Assembly (NCBI GenBank): GCA_026390655.1
Contig: JAPLFN010000107.1
Coordinates: 1 to 41,874, forward strand
DNA length: 41,874 nt
Direction: 5' to 3'
Source of the DNA: Candidatus Kapaibacterium sp.
Lineage (GTDB): Bacteria; Bacteroidota; Ignavibacteria; Kapaibacteriales; Kapaibacteriaceae
Positions 5,178 to 16,124 of the stretch are shown piece after piece. Under the pieces are notes generated by a model, which saw only the letters and a list, made by a program, of their open reading frames with translations, was not told the origin of the DNA and made no database searches. The position numbers were made by a program, and so were the translations under genes. Each line of letters begins with the position of its first letter. The stretch's first letter is position 1.

Positions 5178-5209
5178 TTGCATCATATCGAATCATTCCC
5201 TTATATTGC
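5178..5209 (+). promoter_or_regulatory. Candidate Bacteroidota-type promoter for the Rrf2 gene
   Basis: TTG at 5178-5180, 21 bp, then TATATTGC at 5202-5209, close to the Bacteroidota TTG / TAnnTTTG arrangement. It lies about 50 bp before the Rrf2 start chosen here. Pattern match only. Confidence 0.35.
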
Positions 5210-5212
5210 GAT

Positions 5213-5233
5213 TAGGGACTACCTTATCCCCTA
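5213..5233. promoter_or_regulatory. Candidate operator, TAGGG-N11-CCCTA dyad
   Basis: A 5-bp inverted repeat lies just downstream of the predicted promoter and upstream of the Rrf2 start. This is where an autoregulatory Rrf2 site would be expected. It does not match a known NsrR or IscR consensus. Confidence 0.25.
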
Positions 5234-5261
5234 TGTAAATGCAAAATGGTCGATCTTCCTG

Positions 5262-5690
5262 ATGCTCTCAAAGTCCTCTACATACGCGATCCAGGCCCTA
5301 GCCTTTCTTGCAGCAAAAGGATCAGAGCCGGAGTTCACGCCGATCTCGGAGATTGCAGAGACGCTTTCCATTCCGTATCACTTCCTCAAGAAGATCCTTG
5401 CAGAACTTTCTCAGAAGGGGCTTCTGCACTCTCAACGCAGTGCCAGAGGCGGAGTAGGGCTCAATCGAGATGCAAAGTCCATAACCTTACTCGATATCAT
5501 AACAGCCCTCGATGGCTCGTCGCTGTTCTCGGAATGCATTCTCGGTTTGCCTGGCTGTGGCGAAAAGACTCCTTGCGCACTTCATAACGCGTGGGCTGCC
5601 GAAAGATCTCGTCTGCATCTCATGTTTTCGTCTACAACTCTTTCAGATATCGCCAAACGAATCCATTCAAAGGGATTCAGGATCTCATAA
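5262..5690 (+). CDS. Rrf2 family regulator with three-cysteine (Fe-S) motif
   Basis: A 142-residue winged-helix transcription factor. I start it at the internal ATG giving 'MLSKSSTYAIQAL', the standard Rrf2 N-terminus; the longer ORF adds 28 residues without family likeness. The helix-turn-helix is around 'TPISEIAETLSIPYHFLKKIL' (26-46), then the wing 'RGGVGL'. Three cysteines, C92-X6-C99-X5-C105, resemble the cluster ligands of NsrR/IscR/RsrR, so a redox- or NO-sensitive Fe-S cluster is likely. It lies 45 bp upstream of the RIC gene and leads into the nos block, which fits a nitrosative-stress regulator. NsrR-like function is inferred, so no symbol is given. Confidence 0.88.
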   Translation: MLSKSSTYAIQALAFLAAKGSEPEFTPISEIAETLSIPYHFLKKILAELSQKGLLHSQRSARGGVGLNRDAKSITLLDIITALDGSSLFSECILGLPGCGEKTPCALHNAWAAERSRLHLMFSSTTLSDIAKRIHSKGFRIS

Positions 5691-5735
5691 CTCGTCTTTT
5701 TTGTCACATTAGTGATTCGTTACTCCCCTTTCCCC

Positions 5736-6431
5736 ATGTTTACAACAGCCTCGTCTCTAACTGACATTCTCCGTGACGCTCCAGCGTCAGTCAGTGTTTT
5801 TCATCAACACGGTCTCGACTATTGCTGTGGAGGCAAGACATCGCTACAGAAGGCATGCAGCGATCGTGGACTCGACGTCCAGATGATCCTCGGTGAGCTC
5901 GTGAACGCTAAGGACAGCGACGTATCAGGATCGATCCATCCGGAACTCTGGAACACGGCCTTTCTAATAGACTACATCATCAACAACCATCACAGTTTTC
6001 TGCGCAATACACTCCCGATGGCTTGTGAACAGATGCAGCGAGTTGTTGACCGACATGGAGATCGCTATCCGGATGCAAAGGCCATCGCTGAGCTAATGGA
6101 AGAACTTCGCTCAACCCTTCTCGAACATCTTGACGAAGAAGAGAAGGGCGTTTTTGCAGCCGTGCTAACGGACGCTAACGCCGCAAGCGCAACTCATGAG
6201 ATTGAAAACCATGAGAAGAGTCACAGCGATGTGGGCCGAAAACTTCAAAGACTCCGCGCACTAACGAACGAATTCGTTCCCCCGCTGGACGCCTGCACTA
6301 CACACCGAGCCGGCTACGATTCTATGCGGCGCATCTATGAGGATACGATGCAGCATGTCTATCTCGAGAATGCACTCCTGTTTCCGCACATCATCTCTGA
6401 CATCAATAGAATTACTAACACACATCATTGA
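5736..6431 (+). CDS. ric: Iron-sulfur cluster repair di-iron protein (RIC/ScdA/YtfE)
   Basis: Cytoplasmic di-iron protein that restores Fe-S clusters damaged by NO or oxidants. The N-terminal DUF542/ScdA_N domain has the CCGG motif (C30-C31 in 'GLDYCCGGK'); the rest is a hemerythrin-like four-helix bundle with the expected His/Glu ligands in 'NNHHSFLR', 'EHLDEEEKGVF', 'HEIENHEKSH' and 'ENALLFPHI'. The ATG at 5736 gives the normal ScdA N-terminus; a GTG 24 bp upstream is possible. It follows the Rrf2 regulator and precedes the nos genes, a pairing expected where NO is encountered. Confidence 0.93.
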   Translation: MFTTASSLTDILRDAPASVSVFHQHGLDYCCGGKTSLQKACSDRGLDVQMILGELVNAKDSDVSGSIHPELWNTAFLIDYIINNHHSFLRNTLPMACEQMQRVVDRHGDRYPDAKAIAELMEELRSTLLEHLDEEEKGVFAAVLTDANAASATHEIENHEKSHSDVGRKLQRLRALTNEFVPPLDACTTHRAGYDSMRRIYEDTMQHVYLENALLFPHIISDINRITNTHH

Positions 6432-6457
6432 CCTCCACTCACTTGAGGAAGAATACC

Positions 6458-6931
6458 ATGAAGTCTTTCACATATAGTCGTCTAGCCGTGGTCGCAATAC
6501 TCGTTATCTCATCTGCTTGGATAGGAGGTTGCTCATCTAAGGACGGTGATGCCGACGATAAGACACCGTCGTTTGCCGAAGATCAGCAACCAAAGGCTGT
6601 CTACGGCAAAATTCAAAAGGTGGATGTAGGTGATGCGATCGACCCCTCTATGGCAAAGGCGGGCAAGGAAATATTTGAAACGAAATGCACCGCATGTCAC
6701 AAATATGATGTGAGGTATGTAGGCCCTCCCCTTGGTAAGGTTACCGAACGCCGGACTCCGGTGTACATCATGAACATGATCCTCGACACAGAAACCATGA
6801 TCGAGAAGGATGACACTGTGCAATGCCTAGTACAGACCTTCCTGATGAAGATGCCGAATCAAAGCGTGGATGAGAAGGACGCTCGCAACATTCTCGAACA
6901 CCTGCGCACAAAGCCAACAGAAGCAAAATGA
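6458..6931 (+). CDS. Lipoprotein monoheme cytochrome c of the nos cluster
   Basis: Probable electron donor to NosZ. The start at 6458 has 'gagga' upstream and yields a lipoprotein signal ending in lipobox 'WIGGC' (C25). One heme site, C77-T-A-C-H81, and a likely axial Met in 'FLMKMPNQ' (M130 or M132). The window holds no nosR, nosG, nosH or nosC, so this membrane-tethered cytochrome is the only visible route for electrons. Its stop overlaps an ATG of the longer nosZ reading frame, and the chosen nosZ start is 38 bp further on, so co-transcription is nearly certain. Confidence 0.88.
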   Translation: MKSFTYSRLAVVAILVISSAWIGGCSSKDGDADDKTPSFAEDQQPKAVYGKIQKVDVGDAIDPSMAKAGKEIFETKCTACHKYDVRYVGPPLGKVTERRTPVYIMNMILDTETMIEKDDTVQCLVQTFLMKMPNQSVDEKDARNILEHLRTKPTEAK

Positions 6932-6969
6932 TCATCCATGTACCCCTCACTTATTCTAGGAACACTCGT

Positions 6970-8925
6970 ATGGTAACGCCGAGATCCTTCTTGCGCGGTC
7001 TGTTCGTACTTATAGCCGCAATCTCAATTGTCTCCTGCTCAAAGGACAACGCTCCTTCGGGCGGCGCTCTTTCTGGTGACGCAGCGCAACGCGTCTATGT
7101 TGCACCGGGTCAAAAGGACGAATTCTACGACTTCGTCTCTGGTGGATTCAGCGGCCAAGTGGCCGTTTATGGTCTTCCAAGTGGACGACTCTTTCGCGTG
7201 ATTCCCGTCTTCTCCGTTGATCCGGAGAAGGGATGGGGCTTCACAGAAGAAACAAAACCAATGCTTAACACATCACACGGATTCATTCCGTGGGATGATT
7301 CGCACCACCCGGACCTATCGCAAACAGGTGGCGTTGCAAATGGTAAGTGGCTCTTCATCAACGGAAACAATACGCCCCGTATCGCACGTATTGATCTGAC
7401 GGATTTCCGTACGAAGGAAATCATTGAGATTCCGAACAGTGCCGGTAATCATTCTTCGCCGTTCTCTACAGAAAACTCTGAGTACGTTGTTTCGGGTACA
7501 CGTTTCTCGGTACCTATTCCTCAAGAAGACGTCTCTATTACCACATACTCCGAGAAGTTCAAAGGGGCTCTCACCTTCGTCAAGGTGAACCAGACATCAG
7601 GTGCAATGGATATCGATTTCCAACTCCTCGTTCCTGGCTTTGACTATGACCTCGCCCGTGCCGGCAAGGGTCCTTCACACGATTGGATGTTCATGTCGTG
7701 CTACAACACGGAAAAAGCCAATACGATGAAGGAGATCAACGCCTCTCAGAACGACAAGGACTTCATCATCGCTATCAACTGGAAAAAGTGTGCTGAGATC
7801 GCTGCTTCCGGAAAGGGTACGATCATGAATGTGGACTATGCACACAATGTCTACGATGATGCCAAACAGTCAGCAACTTCTACCATCAAGAAGTCTATTC
7901 GCATTCTGACCTCTGAAGACATCAAGGGTGCCTTGTACTATATGCCTACACCAAAGTCACCGCACGGTTGCGATGTTGATCCGTCCGGTGAGCTCATTGT
8001 TGGTGGCGGCAAACTCGCAACTGTCATTCCTGTAATGTCGTTCTCCAAGATGATCAAGGCAATCGAAAGTGGCAAGTCAGACAAGATCATCGATGGAATA
8101 CCTGTATTGAACTACAAGGACTGCTTAGCAGGTGAAGTTGTTCGTCCAGGCCTTGGACCTCTTCATACTGAGTTTGACGGAAAAGGATATGCCTATACAT
8201 CGATGTTCGTTTCTTCAGAGATCGTTAAGTGGTCACTTAAGGATTTCAAAGTTGTCGATCGCGTACCTACCTATTACTCAATTGGTCACCTTGGTATTCC
8301 TGGTGGTAACTCCACAAAACCTTGGGGCAAGTATCTGATCGCCTATAACAAGATCACAAAGGATCGCTACCTGCCTACAGGCCCTGAGCTTGCACAATCC
8401 GCGCAGCTCTTTGACATCTCGGGCGACAAGATCAAGCTCCTGCTTGATTTCCCAACGATCGGTGAACCTCACTATGCTGTTGCATGTCCGGCCGATCTGA
8501 TCATGAAGAATTCACGGAAGATGTATCAGCTATCTGAGAACATGCACCCATATGCTACAAAGAAAGAGTCTGACACAAAGGTAGTTCGCTCCGGAAACGA
8601 GGTTCACGTGTATATGACGTCAATCAGATCACACTTTTCGCCAGACAACATCGAAGGTGTAAAGGTTGGAGACAAGGTCTATTGGCACGTTACAAACCTT
8701 GAGCAAGACTGGGATGTTCCGCACGGCTTCGCCGTCTACGGTGCAGCAAACTCGGAGCTACTCATAATGCCGGGAGAAACCTGCACCATGCTTTGGGAAC
8801 CTAAGCAAGCAGGCGTTTTCCCATTCTATTGCAGTGACTTCTGTTCTGCACTGCACCAGGAGATGCAAGGGTATGTCCGCGTCTCTAACGGCGGTAGCGG
8901 TGCAATGTCGTGGAATAAAAAGTAA
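6970..8925 (+). CDS. nosZ: Nitrous oxide reductase, clade II (Sec-dependent) NosZ
   Basis: Reduces N2O to N2 in the periplasm, the last step of denitrification. The N-terminus is a Sec-type, apparently lipoprotein signal ('LIAAISIVSC') with no twin arginine, which marks clade II (atypical) NosZ. The beta-propeller carries CuZ-type histidine segments ('DSHHPDLS', 'HGCDVDPSGE', 'HTEFDGKGYAYTSMF', 'EPHYAV', 'ENMHPYA'). The C-terminal cupredoxin domain has the CuA set: His in 'HGFAVYG' and 'CSDFCSALHQEMQG' (C-X3-C-X3-H-X2-M). The start at 6970 is preferred because it has 'tagga' upstream and a clean signal peptide; ATG 6928 is an alternative that overlaps the cytochrome stop. Confidence 0.98.
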   Translation: MVTPRSFLRGLFVLIAAISIVSCSKDNAPSGGALSGDAAQRVYVAPGQKDEFYDFVSGGFSGQVAVYGLPSGRLFRVIPVFSVDPEKGWGFTEETKPMLNTSHGFIPWDDSHHPDLSQTGGVANGKWLFINGNNTPRIARIDLTDFRTKEIIEIPNSAGNHSSPFSTENSEYVVSGTRFSVPIPQEDVSITTYSEKFKGALTFVKVNQTSGAMDIDFQLLVPGFDYDLARAGKGPSHDWMFMSCYNTEKANTMKEINASQNDKDFIIAINWKKCAEIAASGKGTIMNVDYAHNVYDDAKQSATSTIKKSIRILTSEDIKGALYYMPTPKSPHGCDVDPSGELIVGGGKLATVIPVMSFSKMIKAIESGKSDKIIDGIPVLNYKDCLAGEVVRPGLGPLHTEFDGKGYAYTSMFVSSEIVKWSLKDFKVVDRVPTYYSIGHLGIPGGNSTKPWGKYLIAYNKITKDRYLPTGPELAQSAQLFDISGDKIKLLLDFPTIGEPHYAVACPADLIMKNSRKMYQLSENMHPYATKKESDTKVVRSGNEVHVYMTSIRSHFSPDNIEGVKVGDKVYWHVTNLEQDWDVPHGFAVYGAANSELLIMPGETCTMLWEPKQAGVFPFYCSDFCSALHQEMQGYVRVSNGGSGAMSWNKK

Positions 8926-8937
8926 CGGAGAGCGAAC

Positions 8938-9525
8938 ATGAAACCCCTTCATCGGATCTTGACGGCGCTTGGAGCACTTTCCCTGCTCGGACTATTCGTG
9001 TTTCCAATGTGGTCCATCACCCTTGAGGCTCCTCAATATCCGAAGGGTAGCGAGCTCGGAATACTCATCCGAATCAACAACGTTGAAGGTACGCGACCGA
9101 ATGATCTAGGCAACATCAACAACCTCAATCACTACATAGGCATGAAGAGAATAGAGGTGGACTCCATCCCTGAACTCAAATACATGCCGATCATCGTGCT
9201 TGCTCTTGTTGGTCTAGGTCTTTTGATCGCTGCCTTTGGGCGCAGATGGATGAACCTTGTGTGGATAGCCCTGCTTACTGCGGCTGGAGCACTTGGCCTA
9301 TACGATTTCTGGCTCTGGGAATATGACTATGGACACAACCTCGATCCGCATGCCATCATTAAGATCGAGGGAATGTCCTATCAACCGCCACTGTTCGGTA
9401 CCGAGCAACTTTTGAATTTCTCGGCTAGTTCGTATCCCGACATTGGCTTTGCCTTTATCGCCCTCGGCGCACTCCTTGTTGGCCTAGCCTGGTGGCTTAG
9501 CCGCAAGCGTACAACCACTCACTAG
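8938..9525 (+). CDS. Small polytopic membrane protein of the nos cluster (NosB-like position)
   Basis: 195 residues with about four membrane helices (roughly 5-24, 83-101, 104-122, 168-187) and a periplasmic segment containing 'YPKGSELGI' and 'NLNHYIGMK'. It starts 12 bp after nosZ with 'ggaga' upstream. Clade II nos clusters regularly carry an uncharacterised membrane protein, called NosB in epsilonproteobacteria, immediately after nosZ; position and topology fit, but I cannot confirm homology. A role in electron transfer or NosZ maturation is inference from location. Confidence 0.75.
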   Translation: MKPLHRILTALGALSLLGLFVFPMWSITLEAPQYPKGSELGILIRINNVEGTRPNDLGNINNLNHYIGMKRIEVDSIPELKYMPIIVLALVGLGLLIAAFGRRWMNLVWIALLTAAGALGLYDFWLWEYDYGHNLDPHAIIKIEGMSYQPPLFGTEQLLNFSASSYPDIGFAFIALGALLVGLAWWLSRKRTTTH

Positions 9526-9541
9526 TTATCTGCGGCGAATT

Positions 9542-9988
9542 ATGAAAAATCTTTGGCTCATCTCGATCATCGCGATATCGATTATCGTCACATCATGCAG
9601 CGAACCGGAACCCAAGGCCATCGTGTATGGCAGCGAACAATGCACGTCTTGTCGCATGGGCACCACGGATCAGAAGTTTGGTGCGGAGATCGTTATGAAG
9701 ACGGGCAAGACCTTTGTCTTTGACTCGCCTGAGTGTATGATCGAGTGGGCAGAAGGCACCACCGTAAAGAAGATTGATATCCACTCATTCTGGGTCACAG
9801 ACTTCATCAATCCTGGAACCCTGATCGATGCTCGCACGGCGTGTTATCTCGAAAGTGACATGATCCACTCCCCAATGGGATTGAACGTGGCCGCCTTTCG
9901 TGATAACAACTCCTGCGAGCGCGCTCGGGTAAACTTCGTCGGCAAGGTGAGAACATTCGACGAAGTACTCACCCTCCCTAATAACTAG
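9542..9988 (+). CDS. nosL: NosL copper chaperone lipoprotein
   Basis: Binds Cu(I) and delivers it for assembly of the NosZ copper centres, anchored to a membrane as a lipoprotein. It has a lipoprotein signal ('IIVTSC') and the NosL core: 'EQCTSCRM' (a C-x-x-C-R-M metal site), 'FDSPECMIEWA' and 'FWVTDF'. Length (148) is normal for the family. It sits between the nosZ-associated membrane protein and the YtkA-like lipoprotein in an unbroken operon. Confidence 0.94.
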   Translation: MKNLWLISIIAISIIVTSCSEPEPKAIVYGSEQCTSCRMGTTDQKFGAEIVMKTGKTFVFDSPECMIEWAEGTTVKKIDIHSFWVTDFINPGTLIDARTACYLESDMIHSPMGLNVAAFRDNNSCERARVNFVGKVRTFDEVLTLPNN

Positions 9989-9992
9989 AAAC

Positions 9993-10799
9993 ATGATTAC
10001 GACAACACTCTTCATGAACACCTTAAAATTGTCGGCGCTCGCAGTATTAGCAGTCCTTGTGCTGTCTTGCACTACAACCACAGAGCCCGTTAAGCCGATC
10101 ACAATCGACAAGACTCTCGTATCCACGGTGACTGCATCCAACTACGCTGTGGAACTCTATGCGGATGGAGCCATTACTGTGGGGTATACGCCTCTCTATG
10201 TTCGCATCCGACACAATGGACTAACGTTAACGGACGTTCACGTGCTCATTACACCAAACATGGATATGGGCAGTATTCACCATACATGCCCGGTTGAGCA
10301 AGATGAAGAGGTTGCGCCGGACAAAGACGGACTGTATCACAGCGCAGCCATCTTTACGATGGCAAGTGATGTGGGCTGGAAGGTAGGCATTACCATTCAT
10401 GATCACGACATAGACACAACGTTTACCGTACACATTCCAATCGCGGTAGGTAACTCAGGAAACACAGTTACTCTCAAGGATGCATCCAGCACAAAGTACA
10501 TCCTCACGCTTAAGAACGCTGCATGGACTGTGGGGATGAACGATATCATGTTCAATCTCTATCGCACAGCCGACGGGTTTGACTATACTCCTGTTGATGA
10601 TGCTGAAGTTTCCTTTGCTCCAACGATGCCCTCAATGGGACATGGCTCTAAAGGAAATGTCACCCCTGTGGCAACAGTCGGCGGATGGTACGTCGGTCGT
10701 GTCAACTACACAATGACTGGAGACTGGCAGATAGCTCTTGCAGTGAAGACCCTTGACGGACAGATACTCACGAACAACTATCAGGTTGTTGTTCGGTAA
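9993..10799 (+). CDS. Lipoprotein with two YtkA/FixH-like domains, probable copper binding
   Basis: A 268-residue exported lipoprotein ('LAVLVLSC'); the start may instead be ATG 10014. It appears to have two tandem immunoglobulin-like YtkA/FixH-type domains (about 50-145 and 150-268). The second has the typical 'PSMGHGS...GWYVGRVNYTMTGDWQI' layout. Each domain holds a Met/His-rich segment: 'NMDMGSIHHTC' in the first and 'MPSMGHG' in the second, candidate Cu(I) ligands. Placement between nosL and a copper-type TonB receptor suggests a periplasmic or outer-membrane copper relay. The duplication and metal role are my reading of the sequence. Confidence 0.72.
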   Translation: MITTTLFMNTLKLSALAVLAVLVLSCTTTTEPVKPITIDKTLVSTVTASNYAVELYADGAITVGYTPLYVRIRHNGLTLTDVHVLITPNMDMGSIHHTCPVEQDEEVAPDKDGLYHSAAIFTMASDVGWKVGITIHDHDIDTTFTVHIPIAVGNSGNTVTLKDASSTKYILTLKNAAWTVGMNDIMFNLYRTADGFDYTPVDDAEVSFAPTMPSMGHGSKGNVTPVATVGGWYVGRVNYTMTGDWQIALAVKTLDGQILTNNYQVVVR

Positions 10800-10801
10800 C
10801 G

Positions 10802-12808
10802 ATGAGCCCCCTCCCAACCATCGTGTTTCTCTACGTTGTGACCGGCGTTGCGGCTATAGCTCAGGATACGCTCAAGACGATCACCGTGCGTACTGTAGTG
10901 GTGGAGGCAGATCCGTATTCGAAGCCGTGGCGCATGGATCGCCCCTTGTCGGCATCGAGTTCTGTTGACGACCTCATGAGACTCGGCGGCCTTTCACTGA
11001 TCCAACGCGCTAATGGCTTTGCGGGCGAGGCGTCGATGCTTGGACTACGTGGGGGACAGATGAACACGTCCATCGATGGCATGAAGATCCACGCAGCATG
11101 TGTTGATAAAATGGATCCTTCGACTGCCTACATCGAGCTTGACAATCTCTCTTCCATGGACGTATCGTCCGATGCAACTGATTTGCGTTATGGACAGAAC
11201 CTCGGTGGCTCAGTGAACTTCTCTCTGAAACAACCCACACTTGCTACCTCTTTATCGTCAATAGTCAGTATGTCAACGGAATCCAACGCAGCCCTGCGAC
11301 GCTTTCGCGTCGATCTTTCCGGCGGTACCGAAACGCTTGGACTCAGGGCCGGATACACAATGCGATCTGCCGACAACATGCGTGCTGGTGATGGGCAGTA
11401 TATCTCATTATCGGGTTTCACAAAGCACAACGTTCAGGTAGGGGGCTTATGGAAGCTATCGGACCGAGATGCACTTTCAGCGACCTTTATCGCCGACGTG
11501 GCGTCGGACGTTGGATATCCCGCTCTCATCATGGATACGCGTAAGGCCGATGCACTTATTGGCGCTATCACATGGCGCTCAGCATGGTCTCCTTCCATCA
11601 ACACATCTGCAAAGCTGTATGCAAACTCAGTTACGCATACGATGGACGACTATGATCGCCCCCTATCGCAGATAGCATCGCGAGCCTTTATGCCGAACAT
11701 GCACATGCCTATGCTTGGTACAACTCATGTGTTTGGTTTGTTAGCCGAAGGCAGCATCGCTAGTTCCGATAATCTCATTCGAACCGTGATTGATGTTACG
11801 TATCTCGATGCACGCGCAACGATGAGTATGATCCCATTGGACACCTCTGTTTCAACAATGCAAATGACAAACATCGGAGATGCACGCGTTGCAACTGCAG
11901 GTGTTAGTGCTTCATGGGAGCACAGTATTGATTGTGATTTATCAGTGCGCGTTGGAACAAGAGTTGACGTCTCGAGCCGCACGCTAGCGGACGCTTCTTT
12001 CCGTAGTGTCCTTGGTGGCTACTATCCCGGGATGTCTCTTGATAGAACTGCCGTCGCACTCTCAGTTAATGTTGGCGCGTTCTACACAGTCGCAGAGGGT
12101 GTTCAGCTGTGGACCGTTGTGGCGCGTAGCGAGCGAATGCCGACACATCTTGAAATGTATGGCTTCTGGCTCTACGATCCTCAGGCTAACATTGTCACTA
12201 TAGGACGTCCTGATCTTGCTAACGAAAAGGCTTTGTCACTAGATATAGGGAGCACGTTCCGAACAGATGATATGAAGCTCTCTGTGTCAGGATCGATGCG
12301 TCACATCGACAACTACATCGCGCCGGTGCCGTCAACAGATGTGCCTACTCAAGGACAGCCCCCTACCCGCTACATGGGAAGTATAGGCGGCGCCGACCTT
12401 ATGGGCTTCAACGCAAACGCTACGGTCAGCATTACGCCGTGGTGCAGCATGCAAGCATCGGTACTCGGAACATGGGGAACAGGTATTACGATCAATGACC
12501 CGTTACCACTCATTGCTCCCATGCAGGGGATGGTTCGTGCTGTTGTTGGAGACCCTATGCTTCAGGGGGAGATCATCGTGACAGCAGCAGTTGCGCAATC
12601 GCGTGCATCACGACTAATTCTCCCTGAGGACAATACGGCGTCTTGGGCGCGGGCGGACGTTCTTTTGGCATGGATGCCTCTTTCACAACTTCGCATTCAA
12701 TTTGCGTGCACCAACCTATTCGATACGTTCTACCATGAGCATACGAGCATCAACAACATGCCATCACGCGGTCGTTCTCTCAACGTTGGGTTCAGAGCCG
12801 TGCTGTGA
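10802..12808 (+). CDS. TonB-dependent receptor, OprC/NosA-like copper importer
   Basis: Outer-membrane receptor predicted to import copper for NosZ. Signal peptide (about 1-20), plug domain ('LGLRGGQMNTSIDGMK') and a long barrel ending 'LNVGFRAVL'. In the plug, 'IHAACVDKMDPSTAYIEL' contains C100-x3-M104, the CxxxM half of the copper site described for Pseudomonas OprC and related to NosA. A Met/His cluster 'NMHMPM' (about 299-304) could supply the other half (HxM in OprC). The gene lies 2 bp after the YtkA-like gene, and its stop overlaps nosD (GTGA), placing it firmly in the nos operon. I found no SusD partner here. Confidence 0.87.
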   Translation: MSPLPTIVFLYVVTGVAAIAQDTLKTITVRTVVVEADPYSKPWRMDRPLSASSSVDDLMRLGGLSLIQRANGFAGEASMLGLRGGQMNTSIDGMKIHAACVDKMDPSTAYIELDNLSSMDVSSDATDLRYGQNLGGSVNFSLKQPTLATSLSSIVSMSTESNAALRRFRVDLSGGTETLGLRAGYTMRSADNMRAGDGQYISLSGFTKHNVQVGGLWKLSDRDALSATFIADVASDVGYPALIMDTRKADALIGAITWRSAWSPSINTSAKLYANSVTHTMDDYDRPLSQIASRAFMPNMHMPMLGTTHVFGLLAEGSIASSDNLIRTVIDVTYLDARATMSMIPLDTSVSTMQMTNIGDARVATAGVSASWEHSIDCDLSVRVGTRVDVSSRTLADASFRSVLGGYYPGMSLDRTAVALSVNVGAFYTVAEGVQLWTVVARSERMPTHLEMYGFWLYDPQANIVTIGRPDLANEKALSLDIGSTFRTDDMKLSVSGSMRHIDNYIAPVPSTDVPTQGQPPTRYMGSIGGADLMGFNANATVSITPWCSMQASVLGTWGTGITINDPLPLIAPMQGMVRAVVGDPMLQGEIIVTAAVAQSRASRLILPEDNTASWARADVLLAWMPLSQLRIQFACTNLFDTFYHEHTSINNMPSRGRSLNVGFRAVL

Positions 12809-14043
12809 AACACCTCCTGATCATAGCGTTGATTCTTTGGATGTCGCCCGCCTATGCAGGTACACAGAAGGCATACCCTACTGGTGCTTCCACACTACGG
12901 ACAGCGTTATCGAACGCACGTGAGGGTGACACCATTCTCGTAATGCCTGGTGAACACTCGGGCAGCGGATACGATATCACCAAGCGCATAACGATCATTG
13001 GCATGAAGGGGGCTGTTGTAGATGGTCACTCGAGCGGCGGAACGATCTTTCTTGTTAATGCCGATGGCGTTGCATTTCGCACGCTCACCATTCGCAACGT
13101 TGCCGTAAGCTATGTAGATGATCATGCAGCTATCAAGGTGCTAAACAGAGTCGGGACGGACATCGATGGGTGCCGAATTGAAAACGGCTTCTTCGCAATC
13201 TATCTCAGCAAGTCAGCGAATTGTCGCGTAGCAAACAACACCATTATAGGCGCAATGCGCGATGAGTCAAACTCAGGCAACGGTATACATGCGTGGACAT
13301 GTCGCAATATTCTTGTCACCGGGAACACGATTACCGGACATCGCGATGGCATCTACTTCGAATTCATGCGTCAGGGAACAGTTCTCAATAATCACAGTGA
13401 GCAGAATGCTCGATACGGTCTGCACTTTATGTTCTCGGATTCGTGTTCGTATCACAACAATGTGTTCGCTTCAAATGGCGCCGGCGTAGCCGTGATGTTC
13501 TCCCATGTGGTTGAGATGATCGGCAACACCTTCCGGAACAACTGGGGACCCACGTCCTATGGGTTGCTCCTTAAGGAGATCAAGGAAGGTCACCTCAAGG
13601 ACAATCATTTCGAGCGAAACAGTATAGCCATTCATGCAGAAGGGGCTGGCCACTTTCTGATTGAAGGCAACACGTTCATTCGCAATGGATACGGTTTACG
13701 CATTCTGGGTGGATGCGAAGAGATCACCGTGGTTCGAAACACGTTTGACGGAAACACCTTTGACGTCACGACGAACTCACGCGAGTCTTTCAACACGTTC
13801 AGCGGCAACTACTGGAGCAGTTACGAAGGGTACGACCTTGATCACGATGGCGTTGGAGATGTTCCACATCACCCCGTAAGACTCTACTCCCAGCTTGTAG
13901 AGCAGATGCCGTCTTCGGTGATCCTTCTCCACACTGCGTTCATTACCATGCTTGATTTGGCTGAACGTATCATTCCGACAGTGACGCCCGATCTACTCGT
14001 TGACAATAAGCCCCTTATGAAGCCTAGAGCACAGCAACAATGA
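12805..14043 (+). CDS. nosD: NosD, periplasmic beta-helix protein for CuZ assembly
   Basis: Periplasmic partner of the NosFY transporter, needed for maturation of the NosZ CuZ site (sulfur supply). Signal peptide ('IIALILWMSPAYA'), then a right-handed parallel beta-helix with repeated 'N.I..N...G' rungs through about residue 350 and the NosD-type 'SGNYWSSYEGYDLDHDG' segment near 333-349. It uses GTG overlapping the receptor stop, and its own stop overlaps nosF (ATGA). 412 residues is a normal length. Confidence 0.94.
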   Translation: MKHLLIIALILWMSPAYAGTQKAYPTGASTLRTALSNAREGDTILVMPGEHSGSGYDITKRITIIGMKGAVVDGHSSGGTIFLVNADGVAFRTLTIRNVAVSYVDDHAAIKVLNRVGTDIDGCRIENGFFAIYLSKSANCRVANNTIIGAMRDESNSGNGIHAWTCRNILVTGNTITGHRDGIYFEFMRQGTVLNNHSEQNARYGLHFMFSDSCSYHNNVFASNGAGVAVMFSHVVEMIGNTFRNNWGPTSYGLLLKEIKEGHLKDNHFERNSIAIHAEGAGHFLIEGNTFIRNGYGLRILGGCEEITVVRNTFDGNTFDVTTNSRESFNTFSGNYWSSYEGYDLDHDGVGDVPHHPVRLYSQLVEQMPSSVILLHTAFITMLDLAERIIPTVTPDLLVDNKPLMKPRAQQQ

Positions 14044-14762
14044 TCCGTATAGACCATCTGCACAAGTCCTTTCGCGCATTGCATGTATTGCAGGGCGTAT
14101 CGGTTGTGCTTCCTACCGGCAGTGTAACGGCCATTATAGGTCCCAATGGCTCGGGTAAGACTACACTTATGAAGAGCATTGTTGGACTCGTGCAACCTGA
14201 TAGAGGAACGATCGCCGTTGATGGCGTTTCCACCATTAACAATCCTGAGAGCAGAGCAACAATAGGCTACATGTCACAAGTGGCGCACTATCCGGAGAAC
14301 CTTACACCGCGAGATCTGGTCAACATGGTGCGGGGTGTCCGCATGAGTCGTGTGCCGGATATCTCCGATGAACTCATCGAGGACGTGCAACTTCATGGTC
14401 ATATGGATAAGCCAATGCGCGCGCTCAGTGGAGGCACACGTCAGAAGGTTGGGAGCGTGTTGGCGTTAATGTTTCAGCCAACAACATTGTTGCTTGATGA
14501 ACCAACGGCCGGACTCGATCCGGTTGTTACTGAGCGTTTGAAAGAGCGCATCATCAAGGTACGTGATGCAGGGTCAACTGTGTTGATCACCTCGCACGTT
14601 CTCTCCGAGATCCAGGAACTGGCCGATAGGATCATCTACCTGCATGAAGGACGCGTAATCTTTGATGGCATGGTGAACGAGCTCTTAGAGCGCACTGGTC
14701 ACGATGTTCTCTCGCGTGCAGTTGCCACTATCATGATGCAAAGCAATGGAGGTGTCCAGTGA
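14040..14762 (+). CDS. nosF: NosF ABC transporter ATPase
   Basis: ATP-binding subunit of the NosDFY transporter. Walker A 'GPNGSGKTT', Q-loop region 'IGYMSQVAHYP', signature 'LSGGTRQKVG', Walker B 'LLLDEPTAGLDP' and switch His in 'ITSHVLSE' are all present, so it should hydrolyse ATP. 240 residues. Overlaps nosD by 4 bp and nosY by 4 bp. Confidence 0.96.
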   Translation: MIRIDHLHKSFRALHVLQGVSVVLPTGSVTAIIGPNGSGKTTLMKSIVGLVQPDRGTIAVDGVSTINNPESRATIGYMSQVAHYPENLTPRDLVNMVRGVRMSRVPDISDELIEDVQLHGHMDKPMRALSGGTRQKVGSVLALMFQPTTLLLDEPTAGLDPVVTERLKERIIKVRDAGSTVLITSHVLSEIQELADRIIYLHEGRVIFDGMVNELLERTGHDVLSRAVATIMMQSNGGVQ

Positions 14763-15541
14763 AAACCACTGCACTTCTCTTGAAATACGTTGTTCGCGAT
14801 GTTATGCGGAGTCGTTGGCTAGCACTCTACCTCATCTTCTTTGCCGCTGTTACGGAAGGACTCCTGTATTTCACTGGTGGCGAAGCCAAGACCGTCGTAG
14901 GACTAATGAATGTTGTGTTACTCCTCATCCCGCTTGCGGCCGCTGTGTTCGGAACACTTCATGTGCACCACAACCGCGACTTCGTAGAGCTAATGTTGAC
15001 GCAGCCTGTTTCGCGGAGCGCTATCTACTTTGCTCTCTACCTTGGCGTGAGCCTACCATTTCTCATCGCCTTTGTTGTCGGCATCGGTGTTCCCGCTGCT
15101 ATTCATGGCGTCGTGTTCAATCCTCCTATCCTAACGCTACTAGCGGCCGGCAGCGCGCTAACGATGGTATTCTTTGCAATCGCGTATCTCATTGGCGTGG
15201 TGGTACAGGACAAGGCTGCGGCCATGGGCGTTGCCTTCATATCGTGGCTCTCGTTTGCCGTGTTGTATGATGGATTGATCCTTGCTCTCACAGTGATCTT
15301 CGCGGACTATCCACTAGAGAAGGCAACGATTGCCATGGTAGTTCTGAATCCGATCGATCTCGCACGGATCATCGTAATGCTCACGTTTGACTACGCGGCA
15401 CTCATGGGATATACCGGTGCTGTGTTTCAGGAGTTCTTCGGTGCAGCAACCGGCATCATCATTTCATCGAGTTCACTCATTGTCTGGACGTTGCTCCCGG
15501 TTTTCATCGGGAGGCGCGCCTTTGGACGTAAAGACTGGTAA
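14759..15541 (+). CDS. nosY: NosY ABC transporter permease
   Basis: Membrane subunit of NosDFY (ABC-2 type). About six hydrophobic helices, with 'HHNRDFVELMLTQPVSRSAIYF' as the typical cytoplasmic coupling segment after the second helix. It starts with GTG overlapping the nosF stop. A 31-bp gap separates it from the FAS1 gene, so the nos operon could end here or continue; no terminator hairpin is visible in that gap. Confidence 0.93.
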   Translation: MKTTALLLKYVVRDVMRSRWLALYLIFFAAVTEGLLYFTGGEAKTVVGLMNVVLLLIPLAAAVFGTLHVHHNRDFVELMLTQPVSRSAIYFALYLGVSLPFLIAFVVGIGVPAAIHGVVFNPPILTLLAAGSALTMVFFAIAYLIGVVVQDKAAAMGVAFISWLSFAVLYDGLILALTVIFADYPLEKATIAMVVLNPIDLARIIVMLTFDYAALMGYTGAVFQEFFGAATGIIISSSSLIVWTLLPVFIGRRAFGRKDW

Positions 15542-15572: not shown

Positions 15573-16124
15573 ATGCGCACGCTCGTTACACTATTCATAG
15601 CCGGAACCATCGCAGTCGCGAGTGGTTGTTCATCTGGTTCTGATCAACCTAAGGAAGAATTGAAAGGGGCTGATGGCGGTCCATCGGGTCAGGCACTCGT
15701 AAAAGACGACGACTCACAGAAGGACATTCTCAAGATTGCCGGTGGATCCAAGGATCACACAACCCTCGTAGCTGCCGTCCACGCAGCAGGCTTGGAGAAT
15801 GCATTGTCAAATGCAGGCCCCTTTACAGTGTTTGCTCCAACAGATGCCGCCTTTGGCAAACTTCCGGCAGGCACAGTAGAAGATCTTGTAAAGCCAGAAA
15901 ACGTTGACAAGCTCTCAACGATCCTTTATCATCACGTTCTAACTTCAGACCTAGATCAGTCGAACTTCACGGACGGGCAAAAGGTCACGATGTTCGACGG
16001 GTCACAAGTAACGATGACCATCAACGACAAGGGTTGGTTCATTGATGGTGCCAAGATCGTTGGTTCCGTCCGCGCTTCAAATGGATGGGTCCATGTTGTT
16101 GATGCCGTTGTGGTTCCGAAGTAA
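15573..16124 (+). CDS. Fasciclin (FAS1) domain lipoprotein
   Basis: 183 residues from the ATG at 15573 (the ORF track extends 62 residues upstream into nosY without support). Lipoprotein signal ending 'VASGC', an acidic linker, then one FAS1 domain (about 50-183) with 'GPFTVFAPTDAAFGKLP' and 'YHHV' typical of the family. Such proteins act at the cell surface in adhesion or signalling. It is convergent with an RskA-like anti-sigma gene; FAS1 genes beside SigK-RskA pairs are known in mycobacteria (mpt70/mpt83). Confidence 0.92.
   Translation: MRTLVTLFIAGTIAVASGCSSGSDQPKEELKGADGGPSGQALVKDDDSQKDILKIAGGSKDHTTLVAAVHAAGLENALSNAGPFTVFAPTDAAFGKLPAGTVEDLVKPENVDKLSTILYHHVLTSDLDQSNFTDGQKVTMFDGSQVTMTINDKGWFIDGAKIVGSVRASNGWVHVVDAVVVPK

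Follow-up and report, generated by a model that had tools for sequence, protein, structure and literature searches.

How does copper cross the outer membrane of bacteria that reduce N2O with a clade II NosZ? Copper limits N2O reduction, bacteria of this kind are considered important N2O sinks, and the papers that could be searched yielded no description of the step. The question is posed in concrete form by a contig of Candidatus Kapaibacterium sp. (GenBank assembly GCA_026390655.1, contig JAPLFN010000107.1), whose 41,874 nucleotides are referred to here as the window. In it, a gene for a TonB-dependent receptor lies between nosL and nosD. A first-pass annotation of the DNA proposed a copper-type receptor built into a clade II nos operon, acting as a NosA-like import arm dedicated to the reductase. 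The analysis below addresses what the receptor is, which residues would bind the metal, which protein accompanies it, and how closely its occurrence follows that of nosZ.

The nos operon of the window

The window carries a complete clade II nos operon on the forward strand, with NosD, NosF, NosY and NosL encoded alongside a NosZ that scores 919.6 bits against the Sec-type model TIGR04246 (cut-off 625) versus 363.7 bits against the Tat-type model (cut-off 625). A RIC/ScdA-type iron-sulfur repair protein (5712..6431; PF04405 and PF01814) stands at the operon head, in a synteny conserved in the family. It is followed by a cytochrome c gene (6428..6931; PF00034), itself conserved beside nosZ, by nosZ (6928..8925), and by a gene for a 195-aa membrane protein of no Pfam family (8938..9525), which is found directly 3' of nosZ in all clade II operons examined. 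Next come nosL, encoding a copper chaperone lipoprotein (9542..9988; PF05573 above cut-off), a double YtkA-like lipoprotein gene (9993..10799), the receptor gene (10802..12808), nosD (12805..14043; TIGR04247, 382 bits, above cut-off), the ABC ATPase gene nosF (14040..14762; PF00005 and synteny) and the permease gene nosY (14759..15541; PF12679 and synteny). From nosL to nosY, the junctions measure 4 bp, 2 bp, and then 4-bp overlaps. The tight fit of the receptor gene that had been claimed earlier, a 2-bp spacing from the YtkA-like gene and a GTGA overlap with nosD, is confirmed at both ends: the YtkA-like reading frame stops at 10799, and the GTG start of nosD at 12805 shares its GTGA with the receptor stop codon. 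A promoter and terminator scan of the operon gave no informative signal, promoter-like matches occurring at the level of shuffled sequence. Just upstream, on the same strand, lies a gene for an Rrf2-family protein (5178-5690; PF02082), a candidate regulator, and a fasciclin-domain gene (15573-16124) directly follows nosY.

Identity of the receptor

The receptor gene encodes 668 residues, with a signal peptide at about residues 1-20, a plug and a beta-barrel. Plug (PF07715) and barrel (PF00593) both score above the Pfam cut-off, giving the complete architecture of a TonB-dependent transporter (TBDT). The best NCBIfam model is TIGR01778 (TonB-copper), at 111.5 bits (E 4.9e-32) against a curated equivalog cut-off of 472, so the protein is filed as a member of an OprC-like subfamily and not as that equivalog. 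A phmmer search of the PDB with the single sequence returned essentially OprC alone (7.6e-10), and a profile built from 64 receptor homologues ranked OprC (5e-88) ahead of PhuR (7e-39) and ZnuD (4e-33). In a Foldseek search with the AlphaFold2 model (pLDDT 90.1, pTM 0.87), the top 28 PDB matches are all OprC chains, with TM scores of 0.79-0.83. By sequence profile and modelled fold, OprC is by far the closest relative, and the receptor is assigned on these grounds to the OprC/NosA type. Copper is very likely its substrate. TonB and ExbD are both encoded in the same genome.

Residues of the predicted copper site

In OprC, copper is held by C143 and M147 of the plug and by H323 and M325 of the barrel wall, and a surface track of methionines leads to the site (PMC8610252). 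All four ligands are found in the receptor when it is aligned with OprC. The phmmer alignment (positions counted by hand) pairs C100 with C143, M104 with M147, H279 with H323 and M281 with M325, and the same four columns coincide in a MAFFT alignment. The plug half corresponds to codons C100-V-D-K-M104 (11099..11113), just as the first-pass annotation had read CVDKM as the CxxxM half of an OprC site. The barrel half corresponds to H279-T-M281 (11636..11644), and both of its ligands fall within strand E266-282 of the AlphaFold2 model. Convergence of the four residues in space is implied by the alignment together with the match to the OprC fold.

The earlier choice of barrel partner, H301/M302/M304, has to be replaced by H279-T-M281. 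The stretch NMHMPM (residues 299-304) lies where the loop 283-303 ends and is aligned with SMMPMPM of the OprC methionine track, and position 301 may be Y, N, H or F within the nearest subfamily; these two observations rule the stretch out as the HxM half. The Met cluster of which it forms part, M297-PN-M300-H-M302-P-M304 (11690..11713), stands at the end of the loop that joins strand 266-282 to strand 304-320, and its four methionines are invariant in 30 sequences of the nearest type. The receptor has 34 methionines; these four and M343 are among those conserved in the nearest subfamily. The cluster would suit a counterpart of the OprC methionine track.

Conservation was assessed in sequences gathered without reference to the motif. 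With the full-length receptor as query, homologues at E <= 1e-20 were recovered in 65 of 396 genomes from the phylum; together with a search of the window's family, this supplied an alignment of 64 sequences. Thirteen columns are invariant, among them C100, M104, M244, H279 and M281 (64/64 in each case). Among seven additional weak matches, L160 and L162 have no CxxxM, and a stop codon interrupts L161. The absence of the Cys and Met from orthologues had been put forward as grounds for abandoning a copper site; the proposal stands, as CxxxM is missing in only 2 of the 71 homologues checked, both among the most distant. A chance motif is ruled out, because the residues are invariant in 64/64 sequences and three other receptor-like matches in the same genome contain no HxM and no CxxxM in the plug.

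A double-YtkA lipoprotein as partner

Two subfamilies are prominent among the receptors, one with the plug motif AC[VIT]D.MDP (VT, that of the window) and one with ACPNRMDP (P type, closer to OprC in motif), the latter forming one separate, fully supported group in the tree. This division coincides with a difference in gene neighbourhood. Of 125 distinct VT loci, 121 have a double-YtkA gene near the receptor: immediately upstream in 97, immediately downstream in 22 and a little more distant in 2. For P-type receptors the count is 0/17. Of the four VT loci without a YtkA call, L183 starts at the edge of its contig, tblastn gives a match in L065, and two are undecided. The lipoprotein is thus a near-obligate partner of the VT subfamily and never of the more OprC-like one. 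The neighbourhoods include 80 named genome loci found via the Cys/Met pattern, which were used for gene context and not for motif conservation. The partnership is a new element of the present analysis; a search of open-licence papers found no account of it, nor of an OprC-type receptor in clade II nos operons.

The lipoprotein of the window scores 52.9 bits against PF13115 (gathering cut-off 25.9), has its lipobox cysteine at Cys26, and contains the motifs MDMGSIHH and MPSMGHG. Its invariant or near-invariant positions include C26, P100, M212, M215, Y233, M241, G243 and W245. The predicted structure (pLDDT 94) is all-beta and consists of two halves. A profile of the family finds a sole meaningful match in the PDB, CrdA of Helicobacter pylori (E 9.5e-7), and Foldseek aligns the model with CrdA over about 112 columns, full-length matches being generic beta-sandwiches of low TM score. 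Another YtkA-family protein, CtaK of Bacillus subtilis, supports CuA assembly (PMC13344008). Because of the match to CrdA and the role of CtaK, the double-YtkA lipoprotein is regarded as a putative periplasmic copper acceptor.

Other genes recur near the module outside the window. MbnP (PF20243) occurs in 15/125 and a MauG/MbnH-type di-haem peroxidase in 19/125 VT loci, and both in 0/17 P-type loci; examples are L069, L070, L074, L081 and L102-L110. A small protein of about 120-160 aa, membrane-anchored in appearance, with a Cys motif resembling LCxNKDxPxLxCNGKCHL and a C-terminal HPP, is encoded beside the module in about 80/125 VT loci (upstream of the YtkA-receptor pair in L097:11078-11449, L101:6631-6996, L206 and others), and directly upstream of 8/17 P-type receptors. 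The copies scanned matched no Pfam family above cut-off, and no copy was seen where the window's family has the pair integrated in nos.

Distribution in the family and the phylum

Within the window's family, the receptor follows the reductase closely. Among 23 genomes, nosZ is present in 11 (in one of them as a partial gene at the edge of a contig) and the receptor in 8, all of which have nosZ. The receptor accordingly occurs in 8/11 genomes with nosZ versus 0/12 without (Fisher p = 3e-4, genomes counted as independent). In 8/8 carriers, the YtkA-receptor pair comes after nosL inside nos, and nosD is next wherever the contig continues; in L066 the receptor is the last gene on the contig, the nosD side lying beyond it. 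Three nos operons of the family (G086, G105 and G398) have no pair, and their nosL and nosD genes are 8 bp apart or overlap. In the NosZ tree these three are nested among the carriers at two separate positions, and the receptors of the family form one clade. The simplest history is one ancestral integration followed by two clean losses, with regains possible.

A further case comes from locus L068 (genome G212), where a YtkA-receptor pair occupies the same nosL/nosD junction with a receptor from another branch and with the small Cys-motif gene described above still attached. A single insertion for all nosL/nosD cases is unsupported, since the G212 receptor groups with others; its position in the tree suggests a second insertion or a replacement.

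Across the phylum the association is looser. In the sample of 396 genomes, nosZ is found in 27/47 VT carriers versus 103/349 other genomes (p 2e-4, genomes counted as independent). In two further carriers the nos operon runs off the contig, and nosZ is absent in 18-20/47, or about 40%. The receptor lies within about 12 kb of nosZ in 13 of the 27 carriers that have both, whether inside the operon, downstream, divergent or convergent. Since 24 kb amounts to about 0.6% of a genome of 4 Mb, such proximity is far from chance. Loci of Flavobacteriaceae also have the receptor linked to nos.

With these counts the first-pass annotation can be judged as a whole. Its copper-type receptor in a clade II nos operon is borne out by the homology to OprC, the fold, the ligands and the operon layout. 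The NosA-like import arm likewise finds support in the OprC/NosA type of the receptor and in a nos linkage kept in the family and recurrent across the phylum. The word dedicated fits the window's family, where 8/8 carriers have the receptor inside nos and 0/12 genomes without nosZ have it at all, and does not hold for the receptor type, for which strict dedication to nos is ruled out by the many carriers without nosZ. Because about 40% of carriers lack nosZ, the YtkA-receptor pair is best described, from its genomic occurrence, as a general copper-uptake module that appears to have been placed repeatedly at nos loci and built into the operon of the window.

Proposed function and alternatives

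The preferred reading is that the receptor functions as an outer-membrane, TonB-energised importer of ionic copper, co-encoded in one operon with a clade II NosZ and its maturation factors. The extracellular Met cluster (M297/M300/M302/M304) would guide copper from outside toward a site formed by C100, M104, H279 and M281 between plug and barrel. Remodelling of the plug by TonB would then release the metal into the periplasm, where the double-YtkA lipoprotein would take it up and hand it on, with NosL/NosDFY or the CuA site as the next recipient, leading to the loading of NosZ. As a whole, this sequence of import, hand-over and loading is considered probable. Weighing against it are the facts that nos is not the sole client, about 40% of carriers lacking nosZ, that three members of the family keep a nos operon in which the pair is absent, and that the receptor reaches 111 of 472 bits with TIGR01778. 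A more specific version, held tentatively and at somewhat below even confidence, is that the lipoprotein serves as acceptor for the OprC-type receptor in a Bacteroidota-wide unit, situated here in nos, so that copper would bypass the cytoplasm on its way to NosL/NosDFY/NosZ.

The strongest competing explanation is that the module is merely sited in nos and feeds the whole cell, the operon coupling its expression to low-oxygen respiration. General copper uptake is the likely ancestral role, because the module is common without nosZ and sometimes stands beside MbnP and a MauG/MbnH-type protein in other lineages. The same genome encodes COX1-family (heme-copper-oxidase-family) proteins, which may be copper users, although some may be NO reductases, and OprC/NosA are found in non-denitrifiers (PMC8610252). 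On the other hand, the distribution in the window's family, with no receptor outside nosZ-containing genomes and every carrier placing it inside nos, fits nos-specific use there. Exclusive service to NosZ in this family is plausible, and a whole-cell role for the receptor of the window is a real possibility but the less likely one.

Import of a copper chelate (chalkophore), as by MbnT or CrtA, in place of free ions is improbable. Many TBDTs take chelates, and the MbnP/MbnH neighbours recall methanobactin loci, where that pair also occurs (PMC3621798). However, the full CxxxM-HxM set of OprC shows no variation, unlike CrtA, which imports a chelate and is without conserved Cys/Met (PMC12914433), and a Pfam scan of the operon revealed no biosynthesis genes. 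A receptor for heme or for a metal other than copper (zinc, as ZnuD), its Met and Cys being incidental, is suggested by the rank of PhuR and ZnuD as next-best in the profile search, but is very improbable given that OprC is ahead in E-value (about 50 orders of magnitude) and also by fold, that the thioether-rich ligand set suits Cu(I) and not Zn, and that the neighbouring genes are copper genes.

For ionic-copper import beside nos, the broader interest lies in the recurrence of the pair throughout Bacteroidota, frequently next to genes for N2O reductase, which suggests a route by which copper may reach a greenhouse-gas-destroying enzyme. The cassette may also mark out N2O reducers that scavenge copper.

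Comparison with known systems

Like CrtA/BfrG (PMC12914433), the receptor would link TonB-dependent uptake of copper to a copper enzyme of respiration. That system has no conserved Cys/Met, two conserved His, and imports chelated Cu(II) (PMC12914433); in the receptor of the window, by contrast, one Cys and three Met ligands are invariant. The partner protein resembles CrdA (PDB 9ll2/9ll4) and CtaK/YtkA of B. subtilis as a YtkA-type copper-handling protein, and differs from them in having two YtkA halves, in being a predicted lipoprotein, and in its pairing with a TonB-dependent receptor.

OprC of Pseudomonas aeruginosa (PDB 6fok; PMC8610252) is alike in fold, in the four ligands in place, in M286, and in a Met cluster after the HxM strand, at about 18% identity in the structural alignment. 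The plug motifs read ACVDKMDP in the receptor and ACPNRMDA in OprC. Unlike OprC, the receptor has a YtkA-like partner, sits inside nos, and falls below the TIGR01778 cut-off.

NosA serves clade I NosZ, in a gammaproteobacterium. NosA of Pseudomonas stutzeri is a copper protein of the outer membrane, of OprC type and with a link to the maturation of NosZ (PMC8610252, PMC7558416), as is proposed for the receptor of the window. Its necessity is disputed even in Pseudomonas (PMC8610252, PMC7558416), one P. stutzeri strain requiring NosA and another not (PMC8610252). A receptor that has the full OprC ligand set, lies inside the operon and is accompanied by a constant lipoprotein makes testable the old question of whether NosZ has its own outer-membrane copper supply, and nature offers both nos operons that contain the cassette and others that lack it. 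The setting in the window differs from that of NosA in its clade II (Sec) NosZ, in its Bacteroidota host, and in the position of the receptor between nosL and nosD.
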